Positions 15,040-62,352 of a stretch of 64,000 nt of DNA are shown here, piece after piece (the stretch's first letter is position 1; every line of letters starts with the position of its first letter). Under the pieces are notes generated by a model that saw nothing but the letters and a program-made list of their open reading frames with translations, was not told the origin of the DNA and searched no databases. The DNA is taken from NCBI RefSeq assembly GCF_007833795.1, contig NZ_CP032702.1:992001-1056000 (forward strand), written 5' to 3'. The position numbers were made by a program, and so were the translations under genes. The DNA comes from Candidatus Pantoea soli. GTDB taxonomy: Bacteria; Pseudomonadota; Gammaproteobacteria; Enterobacterales; Enterobacteriaceae.

Positions 15040-15067
15040 ATAATCAATTTAACCACGTTGATATCTT

Positions 15068-15100
15068 AAAAAAGGGGAAAAGTCTTTCCCCTTTTATTTT
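15068..15100 (+). terminator. clpX terminator
   Basis: AAAAGGGGAAA-N4-TTTCCCCTTTT followed by ATTTTTC: an 11-bp stem with a T-rich tail just after clpX. Confidence 0.9.
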
Positions 15101-15116
15101 TCTCACGCCTGTGACA

Positions 15117-15144
15117 TTGAATGTCGTACAACCAACCCCATATA
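15117..15144 (+). promoter_or_regulatory. Sigma-32 (heat shock) promoter of lon
   Basis: TTGAA, a 14-base spacer, then CCCCATATA, an excellent match to the RpoH -10 element. Transcription would start near 15151, about 80 bases before lon. Confidence 0.82.
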
Positions 15145-15229
15145 CTCAATATCCTGTGGGTTTAACTGCATACAGCTTGTATAACGCGGTTCCCATCACC
15201 TGGCGGACATTAAACTAAGAGAGAGCTCT

Positions 15230-33967: not shown

Positions 33968-34081
33968 GGAGGCCCTGTTGGTTCTCCCGCAACGCTAACT
34001 TGTGAACTCGGTCAGGTCCGGAAGGAAGCAGCCGCAGCAGGCGACGCGTGTGCCGGGATGTAGCTGGCAGGGCCTCCACCC
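33968..34081 (+). ncRNA. ffs: Signal recognition particle 4.5S RNA
   Basis: The RNA part of the bacterial SRP, which binds Ffh and targets nascent membrane proteins to FtsY. The 114-base length equals E. coli. The ends GGAGGCCCTG and CAGGGCCTCC pair to form the long hairpin. The conserved Ffh-binding core GTCCGGAAGGAAGCAGCC with the GGAA tetraloop is at the tip. Placement after atl is as in E. coli. Confidence 0.97.
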
Positions 34082-34437: not shown

Positions 34438-34815
34438 CTAAAAGGAATGGCTGGGTTGCTGGAGATAAGCGCACTCTTCGGCAAACAGATTAAATAAGCG
34501 TTTGGCTGAACGTTGCCAGCGCTGAAGATCCTGAGTATTGATGCCATAACTGCTGAACAGCATAAAGGTATCATCAAGATATTCATCAATTTGCGTAATC
34601 AGCGCTTCATCTTCAACATGCTTAATTTTGTAATTCATTGTGAAAGAGGCGATATGCTCAATTAAATCGTTGAGCTGTAAATTGCCTGGAGATGTCGGGT
34701 CATTAACCCAGCCGTGGTGGCTGTCTGTTAATGTCGCCATACTCTCGTCAGACAGGTTCTCACACAGAAATTTAAGCTGGGCAATATCATGCCGTTTCGG
34801 TGAGTATTCGTCCAT
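34438..34815 (-). CDS. tomB: Hha toxicity modulator TomB
   Basis: The 125-residue antitoxin partner of Hha; with Hha it reduces biofilm formation in E. coli. MDEYSPKRHDIAQLKFLCE and DEYLDDTFMLFSSYGIN are strongly conserved. The start is the internal ATG that gives MDEYSPKRHD; an upstream in-frame ATG adds eight residues. The gene and its surroundings are AT-richer than the flanking chromosome. Confidence 0.95.
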   Translation of the reverse strand: MDEYSPKRHDIAQLKFLCENLSDESMATLTDSHHGWVNDPTSPGNLQLNDLIEHIASFTMNYKIKHVEDEALITQIDEYLDDTFMLFSSYGINTQDLQRWQRSAKRLFNLFAEECAYLQQPSHSF

Positions 34816-34960: not shown

Positions 34961-35314
34961 TTACAATTCGTCTGCAGGTGATGGGCGGGTATTGTCGATC
35001 ACCTCAAACACCAGCGAACCGGCGGCAATCCGGAACATAACTTCTTCGCTTCGGGTAAAGGTTTCATTTAAATCCAGGCAGGGATTAAATAAATTCCACG
35101 TAAAATCGTAAAGCATTTTAAATCGATTGTGACCGCATGGCTGTATGGAATTTATCTTAAAACTGTCCGTAACTAATTTGGCATTTTGAGAATACCACTG
35201 GAGGTCGCCTGCCAGCGCGTCCGCTATTTTGAGAATATTCTCCTGAATCAGACGCTGCAGTTTGCCGCAGTCCGCTTCATCAGCGGCAATATCACTATGA
35301 ATAATAGCCTGCAT
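34961..35314 (-). CDS. Hypothetical 117-residue protein beside tomB-hha
   Basis: I do not recognise this protein. It is acidic and soluble-looking, with no membrane segment or signal peptide. Residues 1-40 look helical; a beta-rich half follows (DSFKINSIQPCGHNRFKMLYDFTWNLFNP). Cys occur at about 16, 60 and 78. It starts 145 bases upstream of tomB on the same strand, in visibly AT-richer DNA than the neighbouring ABC genes, with weak ribosome-site purines (GGGA). The frame and codon use look real. It could be an accessory of the Hha/TomB locus or a recent gain; there is no direct evidence for either. Confidence 0.6.
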   Translation of the reverse strand: MQAIIHSDIAADEADCGKLQRLIQENILKIADALAGDLQWYSQNAKLVTDSFKINSIQPCGHNRFKMLYDFTWNLFNPCLDLNETFTRSEEVMFRIAAGSLVFEVIDNTRPSPADEL

Positions 35315-35523: not shown

Positions 35524-35538
35524 TGTTATGTTATAACA
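35524..35538. promoter_or_regulatory. Zur box upstream of the zinc ABC operon
   Basis: TGTTATG-T-TATAACA differs at one base from the enteric Zur core TGTTATA-N-TATAACA. It lies 14 bases before the first small ORF. Zur would repress the operon when zinc is plentiful. The rest of the gap 35315-35552 shows no gene. Confidence 0.75.
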
Positions 35539-35552
35539 TTAATGGGAAAGCG

Positions 35553-35657
35553 ATGAAATTCAGTGGACTTCTTCTTTCGCTGCCAGCCCGCCTGGGGATG
35601 ATGCTGCTGCTGTGCGCGGTGCTGGCGCTGGCGCTGTTCTGGGGCATGCAGCCATGA
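35553..35657 (+). CDS. Small (34-residue) predicted membrane protein at the head of the zinc operon
   Basis: The sequence starts MKFSGLLLSLPARLGMM and continues into one strongly hydrophobic helix (about 14-31), ending FWGMQP. GGGAAAG lies two bases from the ATG. Its stop codon overlaps the ATPase start (ATGA), which suggests translational coupling. It sits directly under the Zur box. I do not recognise a family. It may only serve as a coupled leader, or it may be a small subunit of the transporter. Confidence 0.55.
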   Translation: MKFSGLLLSLPARLGMMLLLCAVLALALFWGMQP

Positions 35658-36310
35658 TGCGGTTTGAGCAGCTGCAGGGCGGCTATCAGGGCAGGGCGGT
35701 GACGCCGGTTGTCAGCGGGACGCTGGCGGCGGGCAGCATGACCGCGCTGACCGGTGCAAACGGCAGCGGTAAATCAACTTTGCTGCGAACGATGGCGGGC
35801 TTACTGCCGCCGGTTGCGGGCCGGTTTGAATGCCAGGTACCGCGCAAGGCGCTGGGCTGGATGCCTCAGCGCAGTGAGCTGGAAACCCGCTTCCCGCTCA
35901 CGGTCTATGAGCTGGTTGCCACCGGCTGCTGGCCGCGCTGCGGCTGGTTCGGTGGCATTAACCGTGCACTACGGCAGGAGATTGATGCCGCGCTGGAGGC
36001 GGTGCAGATGCGCGCCTTTGCTGCGGCGCAGCCCGCGACACTCTCCGGTGGCCAGCTGCAGCGTGTGCTGTTCGCCCGGCTGATGCTGCAGCAAAGCCAA
36101 ATCTGGCTCCTGGATGAGCCTTTTAACGGCATCGATACGGCAACGACCCGCCTGCTGATGTCCATTCTGCAGCAGCAGCAGCGGGCCGGTACCACGCTGC
36201 TGGTGGTTCTGCACGACCGCACGTTAGTCACGCGCTACTTCAGCAGCGTACTCAGGCTGGATAGCGGCGGTACGGTGCATACGCCGCCGCGCGGCGGGGT
36301 GGCGTCATGA
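35654..36310 (+). CDS. Zinc/manganese-type ABC transporter ATPase (AztA/ZnuC-like)
   Basis: ATPase of a metal importer, 218 residues. Walker A GANGSGKST is near 33, signature LSGGQLQRV near 134, Walker B IWLLDEPF near 155, and H-loop LLVVLHDRT near 190. The start is the first of two adjacent ATGs, overlapping the small ORF by four bases. Its stop overlaps the permease start by four bases. The Zur box upstream favours zinc as the substrate; sequence alone does not separate zinc from manganese. Confidence 0.88.
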   Translation: MMRFEQLQGGYQGRAVTPVVSGTLAAGSMTALTGANGSGKSTLLRTMAGLLPPVAGRFECQVPRKALGWMPQRSELETRFPLTVYELVATGCWPRCGWFGGINRALRQEIDAALEAVQMRAFAAAQPATLSGGQLQRVLFARLMLQQSQIWLLDEPFNGIDTATTRLLMSILQQQQRAGTTLLVVLHDRTLVTRYFSSVLRLDSGGTVHTPPRGGVAS

Positions 36311-37143
36311 CGCTGCTGCAGCCGTTTATCGAATTTGGTTTTATGCGTCGGGCATGGGTGGCGTGCCTGGCGCTGGCCGTCAGCGCGACCCCGCTTGGCG
36401 TTTTTCTCTCTTTACGTCGCATGAGCCTGATCGGTGATGCGCTGTCCCATGCGGTACTGCCGGGTGCCGCTATCGGTTATCTGCTCTCCGGGCTGTCGCT
36501 GGTGGCGATGGGGATTGGCGGACTGATTGCCGGCCTGGCAGTCGCGCTGCTTTCCGGCGCAGTAAGCCGATACACGCCGTTAAAAGAGGATGCCAGCTTC
36601 TCTGGTTTTTACCTCGGCTCGCTGGCGCTTGGCGTCACGCTGGTTTCGCTGCGCGGTTCGGGCGTGGATTTGCTGCATGTGCTGTTTGGTTCGCTGCTGG
36701 CAGTGGATAACGCCGCCATGCTGCTGGTGGGCGGCATTGCGGCTGTGACGCTGCTGGTGCTGGCACTGATTTTTCGCCCGCTGGTGATTGACGCTTTCGA
36801 TCCGGATTTCCTGCGCGCGCAGGGTAAATGGAGTGCACCGCTGGTACACGGGCTTTTTTTGCTGCTGGTGGTGCTCAATCTGGTGGCCGGCTTTCAGGTG
36901 CTGGGCACGCTGATGTCGGTAGGCCTGATGATGCTGCCTGCTACCAGCGCCCGTTTCTGGAGCCGTCATCTGCTCAGCCTGCTTGGGATTGCGATGCTGC
37001 TGGCCATCGTGGCGGCGCTGGCTGGTCTGCTGCTGTCATGGCACTTCGCGCTGCCGGCGGGCCCGGCCGTAGTACTGAGCGCGGCGCTGCTGTTTTTACT
37101 CTCGGTGCTGGCAGGGCCCTGTGGCGGCCTGCTGCGTCGCTAA
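36307..37143 (+). CDS. Zinc/manganese-type ABC transporter permease (AztB/ZnuB-like)
   Basis: Membrane subunit of the importer, 278 residues with about eight hydrophobic segments, in the ABC-3 family. The family segment RRMSLIGDALSHAVLPGAAIGYLL is at about 37-60 (coupling helix region), and TLMSVGLMMLPATSARFWS is near 201. It overlaps the ATPase gene by four bases (ATGA) and is followed 23 bases later by the binding protein. Confidence 0.9.
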   Translation: MTLLQPFIEFGFMRRAWVACLALAVSATPLGVFLSLRRMSLIGDALSHAVLPGAAIGYLLSGLSLVAMGIGGLIAGLAVALLSGAVSRYTPLKEDASFSGFYLGSLALGVTLVSLRGSGVDLLHVLFGSLLAVDNAAMLLVGGIAAVTLLVLALIFRPLVIDAFDPDFLRAQGKWSAPLVHGLFLLLVVLNLVAGFQVLGTLMSVGLMMLPATSARFWSRHLLSLLGIAMLLAIVAALAGLLLSWHFALPAGPAVVLSAALLFLLSVLAGPCGGLLRR

Positions 37144-37166
37144 CCAACAGCCACAAGGAGACAAAC

Positions 37167-38048
37167 ATGAAAAGATTACCGCTGAGTCTGGCGCTGGGCG
37201 CCATGCTGGTCAGTCCGCTGAGCCTGGCGAAAACGGTGGAGGCCGTCGCCAGCTTCACGGTGCTGGCCGATATCGTTAAACAGGTGGGCGGCGATCGCGT
37301 CCACGTGAAATCGCTGGTGGGGCCAAATGGCGATCCGCATACCTTTGAGCCGACACCGCAGGACAGCCAGGCACTCGCCGGCGCGCAGGTCGTCTTCGTC
37401 AGCGGGCTGGGGCTGGAGGGCTGGATGGATCGCCTGATTAGCGCTTCTGGCTACAGGGGCAGGGTGGTCGTGGCCTCATCCGGGATAAACAGCCGGACCA
37501 TGGACGAAGAGGGCAAAACCATTACCGATCCGCATGCGTGGAACAGCATGCAAAACGGCGTGATCTATGCCACCAATGTGATGAACGCGCTCATCCGCGT
37601 CGATCCCGACGATGCGGCGACGTTCCGGCAGCGCGGAGCGCACTATATTCAGCAGCTGCAGTCGCTGGACCACTGGGCGAAAACCGCATTTGCCGCTGTA
37701 CCACCGGAAAAACGCAAGGTGCTGACCAGCCATGATGCGTTTGGCTATTTCGGGCAGCGCTATGGCGTCACCTTCCTTGCCCCGGTGGGCTTTTCAACCG
37801 AAGCGGAGGCCAGCGCCAGTGATATGGCGGCCATCATCAGGCAGCTGAAGGCGGAACAGATTCACACCTATTTTATGGAGAACCAGACCGATCCGCGCCT
37901 GGTGCAGCAAATTGCTCATGAAACCGGCGCACAGCCGGGTGGGGAACTCTATCCGGAGGCGCTGTCAGAGGCAAACGGTCCGGCTGCCACCTATACGGCC
38001 GCGTTCCGCCACAATGTGGATGCCATGCTGCAATCCATGAAGCCATAA
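37167..38048 (+). CDS. Metal-binding periplasmic protein (AztC/ZnuA-type)
   Basis: Periplasmic cluster A-I solute-binding protein, 293 residues, with a signal peptide of about 21 residues. Expected metal ligands are His in GDPHTFEP, His in TDPHAWNS and Glu in GFSTEAEAS. The fourth ligand, normally Asp in LYxDxLS, is Glu here (LYPEALS). The His-rich loop of ZnuA is missing. DPRLVQQIAHETGA resembles AztC as I remember it. AAGGAG is six bases before the ATG. Third structural gene of the Zur-controlled operon. Confidence 0.87.
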   Translation: MKRLPLSLALGAMLVSPLSLAKTVEAVASFTVLADIVKQVGGDRVHVKSLVGPNGDPHTFEPTPQDSQALAGAQVVFVSGLGLEGWMDRLISASGYRGRVVVASSGINSRTMDEEGKTITDPHAWNSMQNGVIYATNVMNALIRVDPDDAATFRQRGAHYIQQLQSLDHWAKTAFAAVPPEKRKVLTSHDAFGYFGQRYGVTFLAPVGFSTEAEASASDMAAIIRQLKAEQIHTYFMENQTDPRLVQQIAHETGAQPGGELYPEALSEANGPAATYTAAFRHNVDAMLQSMKP

Positions 38049-38072
38049 AAAAGGCCGGGGAGCAGCCCGGCC
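38047..38072 (-). terminator. rpmJ2 terminator, overlapping the binding-protein stop
   Basis: GGCCGGG-N6-CCCGGCC hairpin. Read on the minus strand it is followed by six T residues (plus-strand A run 38047-38052), so it ends rpmE2-rpmJ2. The T run overlaps the stop codon of the convergent binding-protein gene. The hairpin may also slow transcription from the other side. Confidence 0.75.
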
Positions 38073-38090
38073 AATCATCACGACACATTC

Positions 38091-38231
38091 CTACCGTTTT
38101 TTCTTTCTTCCCTGAACCGCCTTAAAGCGCGGATTGGTTTTGCAGATCACGTAAATACGGCCTTTACGGCGTACCACTTTGCAATCTTTGTGGCGGGTTT
38201 TCGCCGAACGTAATGAGCTTACTACCTGCAT
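38091..38231 (-). CDS. rpmJ2: Zinc-independent ribosomal protein L36B (YkgO)
   Basis: Alternative large-subunit protein of 46 residues: [20 protein letters not shown] then [20 protein letters not shown], ending GRKKKR. Unlike L36A it lacks the complete set of zinc ligands (only Cys17 and Cys30 remain). It replaces L36A under zinc shortage and so frees zinc. It lies 17 bases after rpmE2 and shares its Zur-controlled promoter. Confidence 0.95.
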
Positions 38232-38248
38232 ATTGCGGTGCCTCTGGC

Positions 38249-38506
38249 TTATTTGCTGCGTGTCAGGAAGCTGCCAAAACGCTTGTTAAAGCGCGCGGCG
38301 CTGCCCTCTTTGGCAAACTCTTTCTGCTTACCGGTGTAATAGACATGTGACTTTGAGGAAACATCCAGCGTGACGTAGGGTAAGGTTTCGCCCTCAAAAG
38401 TCATGGTGCGATCGGTCTGGATGGTCGAGCCGACTTTAAAATATTCGTCGGCGGTGGTGTCGTGGAAAAGCACCGGACGATAGTGTGGATGGATACCGGG
38501 TTTCAT
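38249..38506 (-). CDS. rpmE2: Zinc-independent ribosomal protein L31B (YkgM)
   Basis: Alternative L31 of 85 residues without the CxxC zinc motif: [30 protein letters not shown] and FNKRFGSFL are typical. It displaces zinc-loaded L31 from the ribosome when zinc is low. A perfect Zur box lies 18 bases upstream of the ATG. First gene of the pair rpmE2-rpmJ2, convergent with the zinc ABC operon. Confidence 0.97.
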
Positions 38507-38524
38507 ATGCGCTCCTGAATGTTA

Positions 38525-38539
38525 TGTTATACTATAACA
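38525..38539. promoter_or_regulatory. Zur box upstream of rpmE2-rpmJ2
   Basis: TGTTATA-C-TATAACA is an exact match to the enteric Zur core; the palindrome extends one base further on each side. It lies just upstream of rpmE2 on the minus strand. Confidence 0.9.
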
Positions 38540-38586
38540 TTAGTATGACCCGGTCAGGACATGATTGCAACTGCCACGCGCAGGCG

Positions 38587-38628: not shown

Positions 38629-41600
38629 TTAATGTTGATGCTCTGCAGGATGGCCCTGTTCCAGCGCACCTTTATGCTTGCTGAAGCGGCGACGCACCAC
38701 CACAAAGAACACCGGCACGAAGAAGATCGCCAGCGCGGTCGCGGTGACCATGCCGCCCATCACGCCGGTACCCACGGCGTTCTGGGCACCGGAACCGGCA
38801 CCGCTGCTGATGGCCAGCGGCAGAACGCCGAGGATAAACGCCAGGGAGGTCATCAGAATCGGACGCAGACGCATACGCGCGGCTTCCAGCGTGGCTTCGA
38901 CCAGCCCTTTGCCTTCCTTCTCCATCAAATCTTTGGCGAATTCCACGATCAGAATGGCGTTCTTCGCCGAAAGGCCGATGGTGGTCAGCAGACCTACCAC
39001 AAAGTACACGTCGTTACTCAGACCGCGCAGCGTGGTGAAGATCAGCGCACCGATCACCCCAAGCGGAACAACCAGCATGACGGCGAACGGAATGGACCAG
39101 CTCTCATAGAGTGCGGCCAGACACAGGAACACCACAATCAGCGAGATGGCATACAGCGCCGGCGCCTGGTTGCCGGAGAGACGTTCCTGATAGGACATAC
39201 CGGTCCAGTCGTAGCCAATACCGGCAGGCAGCTTCGACGCCAGGCTTTCCATCAGGTTCATCGCATCACCGGAGCTCTTGCCCGGTGCGGCCTGACCCAG
39301 AATCTCCATGGAAGGCAACCCGTTATAACGCTCCAGACGCGGTGAGCCGTACTGCCATTTCGCCGAAGAGAAGGAGGAGAACGGAACCATCGTGCCGCTG
39401 CTGTTGCGCACGTACCATTTGCTGATGTCGTCCGGCAGCATACGGGCATCAGCCTGGCCCATCACATACACCTTCTTCACACGGCCGCGATCGATGAAGT
39501 CGTTCACGTAAGAGCCGCCCCAGGCGGCGCCCAGCGTGGTGTTGATGTCAGACAGCGACACGCCCAGCGCCTGCGCTTTTTCCTGATCGATGATCAGTTT
39601 GTACTGCGGCGTGTCTTCCAGACCGTTCGGGCGCACGCCCACCAGCGTATCCGGATGCTGGGCAATCATGCCAAACAGCTGGTTACGCGCGGCGGTCAGT
39701 TTCTCATGGCCCAGGTTGCCCTGGTCGATCAGCTGGAAGTCGAAACCGGTGGCGTTACCCAGTTCGATAATGGCCGGCAGGTTGAACGGGAATACCATGG
39801 CGTCTTTGATCTGCCCCAGCGCCTTCATCGCACGGCCAGCGATAGCCGGCACCTTCAGGCTGGCATCGCCACGCTCATCCCAGGGTTTGAGGCTGACAAA
39901 GGCGATACCGGTGTTCTGTCCGCGGCCGGCAAAGCCGAAGCCGTTAACGGTAAACACCGAATTCACGCTGTCTTTCTCTTTGTTCAGGAAGTAATCCGTG
40001 ACCTGATCCAGCACCTTCTGGGTGCGCTCCTGTGTCGCACCGGCAGGCAGCTGCGCCTGCGCCAGCAACAGGCCCTGATCCTCTTCCGGCAGGAAGGAGG
40101 TAGGCAGTTTCAGGAACAAATACGCCATCCCCGCCACGATCACCAGGTAAATAACCAGGTAGCGACCGGTGCTGCGGATAATGTGGCCCACGCTGTCAAC
40201 GTAGTGGTTGGTGCTCTTATCAAACAGGCGGTTAAACCAGCCAAAGAAACCGGTGGTTTTGCCGTGATCGCCTTTTTTGATGGGTTTTAGCAGGGTGGCA
40301 CAGAGCGCTGGCGTCAGAATCAACGCCACCAGCACTGACAGCGCCATCGCCGAGACGATAGTGATCGAGAACTGGCGATAAATCACCCCGGTTGAGCCGC
40401 CAAAGAAGGCCATCGGGATAAATACCGCAGACAGCACCAGCGCAATCCCCACCAGCGCGCCCTGAATCTGCTCCATGGAGCGGCGGGTCGCTTCTTTGGG
40501 TGGCAAACCTTCTTCTGCCATTACGCGCTCAACGTTTTCCACCACCACGATGGCGTCATCCACCAGCAGGCCGATGGCGAGCACCATCCCGAACATCGTC
40601 AGGGTGTTAATGGAGTAGCCGAAGGCGCTGATGATGGCGAAGGTCCCCAGCAGCACTACCGGCACGGCGATAGTCGGGATCAGCGTTGCCCGGAAGTTCT
40701 GCAGGAACAGGTACATCACCAGGAACACCAGCACAATCGCTTCAAACAGCGTTTTCACCACTTCGAAAATCGAAATTTTCACGAACGGGGTGGTGTCGTA
40801 CGGGTAAACGGTCTTCATGCCTGACGGGAAGAAAGGTTCCAGCTTCGCCAGTTCCGCTTTAACCGCTTTTGCCGTATCCAGCGCATTCGCACCGGTTGCC
40901 AGCTTGATACCGATACCGGAGGCAGGTTTGCCGTTGTAGCGGGCAATGATCTCGTAGTTTTCCCCGCCCAGCTCAATTTTCGCCACGTCGCGCAGGCGTA
41001 CCTGTGAACCATCCTGATTCACTTTCAGCATGATATTGCCGAACTCATCCGTGGAGGTCAGACGGGTCTGCGCAATGATGGAGGCGTTCAGCTGCTGGCC
41101 CGGCACGGGCGGCGTGCCGCCCAGCTGACCGGCGGCCACCTGGGTGTTCTGGGTTTGCAGCGCGCTTATTACATCCACCGGCGTCAGCTGGTAATTGTTG
41201 AGCTTGTGCGGATCAAGCCAGATACGCATCGCATACTGCGCACCAAACACCTGCGTGTCACCGACGCCTGGCGTACGGCTGATCGGATCTTTGATGTTTG
41301 AGGCGACATAGTCGGCGATGTCGTTCTGCGTCATGCTGCCGTCATCGCTGACAAAACCGGCCACCATCAGGAAGCTGCTGGAGGATTTTTTAACCTGAAT
41401 CCCCTGTTGCTGGACTTCCTGCGGCAGCAGCGGCATCGCCAGCTGCAGTTTGTTCTGCACCTGTACCTGCGCGATGTCGGCGTCCGTACCGGACTGGAAG
41501 GTCAGCGTCAGCGTCAGCGTACCGGACGAATCACTGCTCGAGGACATATACATCAGCCCGTCGATGCCGTTCATGTTTTGTTCGATAACCTGCGTTACCG

Positions 41601-41778
41601 AATCCTGTAACGTTTTCGCATCTGCACCCGGATAAGAAGCCTGGATTTCAACCGCCGGTGGCGCAACATTGGGATATTGCTCAATCGGCAGTTTGATAAT
41701 CGATAGCGCACCCGCCAGCATAATAATGATGGCGAGCACCCAGGCAAAAATGGGGCGATCGATAAAGAACTTAGCCAT
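38629..41778 (-). CDS. acrB: RND multidrug efflux pump subunit AcrB
   Basis: Inner-membrane proton-driven exporter of drugs, dyes, detergents and bile salts; trimer working with AcrA and TolC. It has 1049 residues, as in E. coli. The proton-relay Asp pair is in [16 protein letters not shown] (about 407-408), with Lys in the region of 940 in [13 protein letters not shown]. The switch-loop and porter domains follow the E. coli pattern. The C-terminus is His-rich (HPAEHQH). It follows acrA by 17 bases. Confidence 0.98.
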
Positions 41779-46174: not shown

Positions 46175-48524
<2,350 letters not shown>

Positions 48525-62184: not shown

Positions 62185-62269
62185 TTTTTTAATCCTTAGC
62201 TAAGAAAAATCTTATGTACAAACTGATGAATAGTGCTGGCGAAAATCTGAACTTTGCGCGAAAATTGCC

Positions 62270-62352
62270 CCGCGCCAGCGATGCTGGCGATAACCAAAAT
62301 CATAAACACATTCCTCTTTGACAGGCTGATAGCAATATCGGCCTTCTTTTTT
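62270..62352 (+). ncRNA. chiX: Small regulatory RNA ChiX (SroB/MicM)
   Basis: A Hfq-dependent sRNA that silences chitoporin chiP, released by chitobiose-operon mRNA. The seed TTCCTCTTTGACAGGC near 62311-62326 is almost identical to E. coli ChiX. A 5-prime hairpin (CGCCAGC-GAT-GCTGGCG, 62273-62289) and a terminator (GGCTGATA/TATCGGCC then TTCTTTTTT, ending near 62352) frame it. Length about 83 bases and location between ybaK and ybaP, on the opposite strand to both, match E. coli. Start is approximate. Confidence 0.88.

Follow-up and report, generated by a model that had tools for sequence, protein, structure and literature searches.

The zinc ATP-binding cassette (ABC) importer ZniCBA takes up zinc in Klebsiella pneumoniae (PMC10797113), and the zni genes of Rhizobium leguminosarum show Zur-dependent expression, with a Zur box 153 bp upstream of zniC (PMC12183173). 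In both organisms, ZniCBA is largely redundant with Znu, and it is described as a product of three genes (PMC10797113, PMC12183173). An efflux system of Cupriavidus metallidurans bears the identical name. A second well-described Zur-regulated system is ykgM-rpmJ2 of Yersinia pestis and Escherichia coli, in which genes for a type-B L31/L36 pair lie behind a Zur box (PMC2706843, PMC4219657); the Y. pestis operon is a footprinted Zur target (PMC2706843). Here, we analyze a locus of Candidatus Pantoea soli that carries relatives of both. It lies in a stretch of 64,000 nucleotides, hereafter the window (C1:992001-1056000 of the 4.63-Mb genome, G000). The importer genes (plus strand, 35657-38048) and the type-B L36/L31 genes (minus strand, 38091-38506) converge between tomB and acrB, as an earlier sequence-only reading of this DNA had proposed. 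What is new is a small protein, which we call ZniX, whose gene makes the importer operon four genes long. We consider it fairly probable, from sequence evidence, that the locus comprises two convergent Zur-repressed operons and that ZniX is an accessory subunit of the importer. The features of the locus, in window coordinates, are the following:

35524-35538, plus strand: Zur box ahead of the zni operon, TGTTATGTTATAACA, 0 mismatches to TGTTATNNNATAACA
35553-35657, plus strand: zniX (label coined here), open reading frame (ORF) of 34 codons; a single helix predicted at residues 9-32; stop codon overlapping the start of zniC (ATGATGA)
35657-36310, plus strand: zniC, ATP-binding protein; PF00005; nearest NCBIfam model AztA, 195.3 bits, below the cut-off of 220
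36307-37143, plus strand: zniB, permease; PF00950; AztB, 242.7 bits, below the cut-off of 280
37167-38048, plus strand: zniA, zinc-binding protein; PF01297; ligands H58, H123, H189, and E264; best structure 8SVC, E 3.4e-118
38053-38072, minus strand: hairpin with U-tract, terminator-like for the rpmE2-rpmJ2 transcript
38091-38231, minus strand: rpmJ2 (ykgO), type-B L36; NF002021, 89.3 bits, above the cut-off of 70
38249-38506, minus strand: rpmE2 (ykgM), type-B L31 without Cys; NF002462, 113.5 bits, above the cut-off of 86
38525-38539, minus strand: Zur box ahead of rpmE2, TGTTATACTATAACA, 0 mismatches to TGTTATNNNATAACA
34438-34815, minus strand: tomB, flanking the zni side

The minus-strand gene at 38629-41778 is one that we take, from its translation, to be acrB; hha was named likewise. 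An alternative zniC start is possible at the ATG at 35654. The earlier reading placed the box at 35524 before a metal ABC importer; an importer operon does follow, but its first ORF is the 34-codon frame at 35553-35657 and not the ATPase gene. Both gene sets of the convergent module were correctly recognized; the small membrane protein gene heading the importer operon was missed.

A small ORF ahead of zniC

Close relatives of the window importer were surveyed for ZniX in the best 80 of 331 loci from a ZniA scan with one genome per species (L087, in which no zniC was found, was left out of the ZniX counts). A short ORF that ends at the zniC start and encodes a single hydrophobic segment bearing an R..W pattern is present in the window and in all 79 loci with zniC, which include Pseudomonas and Aliivibrio. 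The same signature was found at none of eight other gene starts in these loci. The ZniX stop codon lies inside ATGA in at least 62 of the 80 cases. R13 and W30 (window numbering) are invariant in 48 aligned sequences, in which mean column identity is 37%. The ratio of nonsynonymous to synonymous substitution rates (dN/dS) has a median of 0.14 over 129 non-independent pairs, and the corresponding ratio of proportions of differences (pN/pS), taken over 41 nearest-neighbor pairs, is 0.29 in frame, compared with 1.03 and 2.03 when the frame is shifted. As judged by these substitution patterns, ZniX is under purifying selection that acts on the protein. The structural model consists of a single helix (residues 9-32; mean predicted local distance difference test score, 81), and in 66 of 80 ZniX sequences the N-side carries more positive charge than the C-side, the two being equal in the other 14.

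ZniX was also found in 20 of 20 further genomes, among them the five zniA-bearing genomes of reduced size (0.6-1.8 Mb) in the family draw. These five (L140 to L144) keep the complete zniX-zniC-zniB-zniA operon; two of them, L142 and L144, have no Zur box at one mismatch or fewer. In a plasmid collection, inspection of the printed frames by eye revealed ZniX in five loci with zniC, from K. aerogenes, Enterobacter hormaechei, K. pneumoniae, Neorhizobium, and Thioclava (L105, with no annotated zniC, was left out). The zni loci of K. aerogenes, K. pneumoniae, and E. hormaechei therefore share the small ORF with the window. The gene table of this collection, which is incomplete, lists ZniX only in K. 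aerogenes, as an "Uncharacterised protein," and a ZniX profile search returned 51 proteins that are hypothetical wherever a name could be read. Annotation tends to overlook zniX. The literature searched, short of supplementary lists, yielded no report of a named small protein encoded just upstream of zniC; ZniX may stand in such a list, for instance among the 40 small membrane proteins counted in K. pneumoniae (PMC10903887).

On the basis of searches of family models and structures, assignment of ZniX to any known family or solved structure was rejected. Against Pfam and NCBIfam, no match exceeded its cut-off, the 48 members giving only single-member family matches (best E, 0.0014), and no Pfam family passed its cut-off with six distant ZniX forms. 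Short ORFs precede znuC, znuA, and a third PF01297 operon of the same genome, and by eye none of them encodes a hydrophobic helix with the R..W pattern.

Beyond the close relatives, 126 of 398 genomes in a phylum-wide draw match ZniA at E 1e-35, many of these matches being other metal importers. Forty of the 126 loci were fetched, and 33 have contiguous zniC-zniB-zniA-like genes; in the seven set aside (L165, L169, L173, L187, L193, L194, and L196), zniC is incomplete, missing, or on the opposite strand. ZniX is present in 25 of these 33 distant operons (15 of 17 and 10 of 16 in two sets) and in all 10 distant loci whose ZniA shares 50% identity or more with the window protein. A motif match at L197 was judged false, as it lacks a hydrophobic helix. 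ZniX is missing ahead of aztA in all four AztABCD loci with an annotated aztA (L222, without one, was left out). The tail contains 5 to 16 His residues in 12 of the 25 distant ZniX proteins, and L175, L177, and L185 combine a His tail with a typical ZniX core. A Bradyrhizobium form has 619 database relatives, of which the best 120 are mostly called "hypothetical protein," a few being named for zinc or nickel transport systems.

Zur boxes and the convergent pairing

The 15-bp palindromic core TGTTATNNNATAACA, whose presence upstream of a gene marks the gammaproteobacterial Zur regulon, occurs exactly at both ends of the locus, as TGTTATGTTATAACA and TGTTATACTATAACA. The Zur boxes read earlier at the two ends are therefore upheld, and the zni site, then called near-perfect, is exact as well. 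Base composition predicts about 0.001 exact matches per 64 kb, and not one appeared in 200 dinucleotide-shuffled versions of the window. At up to three mismatches, the window contains 21 matches versus 9.74 expected. A second match (38520-38534, two mismatches) overlaps the rpmE2 box. Both window sites carry two mismatches to the longer, 19-bp Y. pestis box.

Genome-wide, there are seven exact places versus about 0.08 expected. Outside the window, one adjoins a gene that we take to be a COG0523-type GTPase gene and another a presumed zinT-like gene; two more lie, by names assigned from likeness, between a COG0523-type gene and a second zur-like gene and beside a cysS-like gene of the same cluster. 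The exact box at C3:222067 has no evident zinc gene among its neighboring ORFs. The seven one-mismatch places inspected (L008 to L014) comprise one at a zur-like gene, one between znuA and znuCB, and five where no zinc gene was seen. Because of the gene neighbors of each class, exact boxes can be said to mark a zinc regulon, whereas one-mismatch boxes alone do not. The box at L008 (G000:C1:319218-319232) lies close ahead of the zur-like gene and suggests autoregulation. Separately, L005, L006, and L017 (G000:C3, ~142,800-166,700, on a 276-kb contig) form a second zinc-starvation-like cluster with Zur boxes; its genes, which we named by likeness, presumably include those for a COG0523-type GTPase, a second Zur-like protein, a CysS-like protein, a flavin adenine dinucleotide (FAD) protein, and a further PF01297 ABC importer.

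The sequence RNNNYRNNRYNNYRNNNY is an 18-bp two-dimer Zur motif (PMC4219657). It is found in the rpmE2 box of the window and not in the zni box; among the 56 linked loci described below (window included), it is present at zni in 50 and at rpmE2 in 53. As the window zni box lacks this motif, yet 50 of 56 loci have it, we base no claim of graded control on it.

The minus-strand operon behind the second box is of type B, as had been read. Both products match type-B models; RpmE2 has no Cys and RpmJ2 retains two, and the paralogs elsewhere in the genome, RpmE and RpmJ, have four and three (zinc-ribbon type). The window shares this arrangement with the Y. pestis and E. coli ykgM-rpmJ2 operons and differs from them in having, on the tomB side, a zinc importer operon that runs toward it. 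The terminator hairpin that the two units were thought to share did not hold up: the hairpin at 38053-38072 is terminator-like on the minus strand only (a stem-loop followed by TTTTTT), the plus strand having no U-tract. Of 51 intergenic regions (window included; four loci with an inserted gene and one without a detected rpmJ2 were omitted), 39 show a terminator-like site on the minus strand, 5 show one on the plus strand, and 2 show both, and we reject a shared bidirectional terminator as a general feature. Transcription of zni may stop at another place or continue, as antisense, into rpmJ2-rpmE2. In L052, L055, L056, and L068, the gene inserted between zniA and rpmJ2 is on the rpmJ2 strand and encodes a protein of 343 to 345 residues with many GVN-type repeats.

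Comparative genomics, suggested earlier as a check, confirmed that the pairing is conserved. rpmE2 lies nearby in 55 of the 80 ZniA loci and is convergent with zniA in every one; with the window, all 56 linked loci have both boxes at one mismatch or fewer. These loci span Erwiniaceae, Yersiniaceae, and Pectobacteriaceae (NCBI names), and 51 of the 55 are flanked by tomB and acrB, one at each end, the remaining four coming from shorter stretches. An order-wide draw of 119 genomes contained zniA (E 1e-60) in 6 and rpmE2 (E 1e-12) in 34. In a wider-family draw of 149 genomes, zniA was found in 59, rpmE2 in 72, and both in 49; in 22 of these 49, the two are convergent neighbors less than 5 kb apart.

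The likely explanation of this pairing is an inherited neighborhood, with no functional coupling beyond the Zur box of each operon. The genes are kept apart in 27 of the 49 genomes with both. Twenty of the 50 genomes with rpmE2 but no linked zni were inspected, and rpmE2-rpmJ2 lies directly between acrB and tomB, with no zni there, in 5; in a further 12, it is close to hha/tomB/acrB. The linked state requires at least 5 changes on the ZniA tree versus a shuffled mean of 37.8, which is compatible with one origin; the tree includes some genomes twice (L078/L110 and L076/L131) and only part of the 59 zniA genomes, and L038, L073, L080, and L087 are unlabeled. That every linked case is convergent with both boxes would also fit selection for joint control. 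The coupling of zinc import to ribosomal zinc that was read into the locus stands as far as the Zur boxes common to both units go; coupling beyond the common Zur control of two separate promoters is not supported. The ZniA tree and the neighborhoods fit a pairing that arose by one insertion, or a few, next to an rpmE2-rpmJ2 already in place: most likely, zni settled beside this resident Zur operon and the pair was then inherited. The nearest ZniA relatives on this tree mark the window genome as Pantoea-like, within the Erwiniaceae. On the same tree, the ZniA proteins of L020 and L022 (Enterobacter cancerogenus M004 and Enterobacter ludwigii EnVs2) are nested among Pantoea, and these species names may be wrong.

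Two further observations concern the surroundings. A 117-codon ORF without a Pfam or NCBIfam match lies between tomB and the zni box (34961-35314, minus strand), divergent from zni; it has relatives in 48 of the 80 ZniA loci and in L205, an acrB-tomB locus that has no zni at that place. Rfam matches in the window are a DnaX frameshift element (47487-47548), the small signal recognition particle RNA (33976-34072), sraA (15061-15155), and sroB (62269-62351).

Role of ZniX

From the boxes and from the Zur targets of relatives, we infer that Zur leaves both boxes as zinc falls. The plus-strand operon zniX-zniC-zniB-zniA would then yield a ZniCBA-type zinc importer, while the minus-strand operon would yield low-cysteine L31 and L36 able to replace the zinc-binding forms, a replacement known for these families. 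Translation of zniC is probably coupled to that of zniX because the zniX stop overlaps the zniC start. ZniX itself is conserved and would be a translated, single-pass membrane protein, probably with its N terminus inside and its C terminus outside; given the charge excess on its N-side and the positive-inside rule, the tail is therefore predicted to be cytoplasmic.

ZniX is most likely a fourth component of the importer, accessory to ZniB and ZniC, because it is a positionally fixed and apparently cotranslated single-helix protein with the importer as its constant neighbor. Its most likely place is beside the permease ZniB, where it could stabilize or tune the importer. KdpF, AcrZ, and MntS are small membrane accessory proteins that resemble ZniX in size and in having a single helix, and the genes of some accompany that of the partner. 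Unlike these cases, the literature searched yielded no description of a small accessory protein of a zinc ABC importer. The His-rich tails of some relatives suggest that ZniX may bind or sense zinc at the cytoplasmic face. More tentatively, ZniX could found a family of small ZniCBA subunits across the Proteobacteria, making ZniCBA a four-component transporter in which His-tailed forms, such as that of Bradyrhizobium, receive or sense zinc and gate the permease; we hold this broader proposal to be possible rather than probable.

Several points weigh against an accessory subunit in the importer. ZniX is missing from 8 of the 33 distant operons, six of family f30 and two of f69, although another f30 locus, L163, has it. 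The R..W-plus-hydrophobic signature also occurs at 28 of 4,800 random ATGs, and one of the 129 dN/dS pairs exceeds 1. The tails of the 80 near ZniX proteins have at most three His residues, so that the sequence does not suggest zinc binding by the window protein, and the comparison of the short profile with the His-rich Bradyrhizobium profile (probability, 38.7; E, 3e-4) supports homology only moderately.

Small membrane proteins are known whose partners have their genes at other loci, a precedent for ZniX being a zinc-starvation regulator or sensor of another membrane protein that is merely cotranscribed with the importer. We regard this as unlikely, since in the near loci ZniX keeps its place directly upstream of zniC at every kind of genomic site (acrB-linked, mltB-pncC, or other), and it is this persistence that identifies the importer as the constant partner of ZniX. 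Rather doubtful, too, is the possibility that zniX is only a leader ORF, translated to make the zniC start accessible through coupling, and that its peptide has no function. The overlap of stop and start codons and a short peptide that varies outside a few positions are what such a leader would show, but the amino acids are constrained beyond the frame alone, the Arg- and Trp-bearing helix has been retained across a range that extends from Enterobacterales to Alphaproteobacteria and includes genomes of reduced size, and some lineages have added long His-rich tails.

Identity and substrate of the importer

By sequence and gene order, the window importer is a ZniCBA ortholog. The closest solved structure to ZniA is 8SVC, the Zn-bound ZniA of K. 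pneumoniae (PMC10797113), to which it is identical at 174 of 285 aligned residues (61%); the four ligands have the same numbers in both proteins and are conserved in all 127 tree rows. Like the systems of K. pneumoniae and R. leguminosarum, the window has its three genes in C-B-A order and in one direction, four binding-protein ligands, and an upstream Zur box. It differs in its site, between tomB and rpmJ2 rather than between mltB and pncC as in Klebsiella; the published accounts of those systems describe three genes. The nearest NCBIfam models are those of AztABC(D) of Paracoccus, with which it has the order ATPase, permease, binding protein in common. Membership in AztABC was nevertheless rejected, as all three subunits score below the cut-offs (195.3 versus 220, 242.7 versus 280, and 262.7 versus 350 bits), and no aztD was found next to the importer genes, whose neighbors are rpmJ2 on one side and zniX, the 117-codon ORF, and tomB on the other.

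Zinc, which the sequence-only reading had proposed as the substrate, is well supported by ZniA orthology, by the published zinc uptake of ZniCBA (PMC10797113, PMC12183173), and by the Zur boxes. That the importer carries manganese, alone or with zinc, is very improbable given the conserved three-His/one-Glu site, the boxes, and that published uptake, even though ZniA has no His in the loop preceding the second ligand and matches the Deinococcus MntC model at 240.7 bits (below its cut-off of 400), and the K. pneumoniae authors leave a minor manganese role open (PMC10797113).

Published descriptions present ZniCBA as an importer of three genes that, during infection and in symbiosis, is in part redundant with Znu. 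A fourth, cotranslated membrane protein, kept even in genomes of ~0.6 Mb, would, if true, alter its subunit list, and constructs that start at zniC or treat the preceding region as promoter would omit or add a gene unnoticed. The His-rich forms may link an ABC importer, in a testable way, to zinc handling at the cytoplasmic face. The pairing with rpmE2-rpmJ2 would represent a conserved case of a metal importer that settled next to a resident operon of the same regulon.

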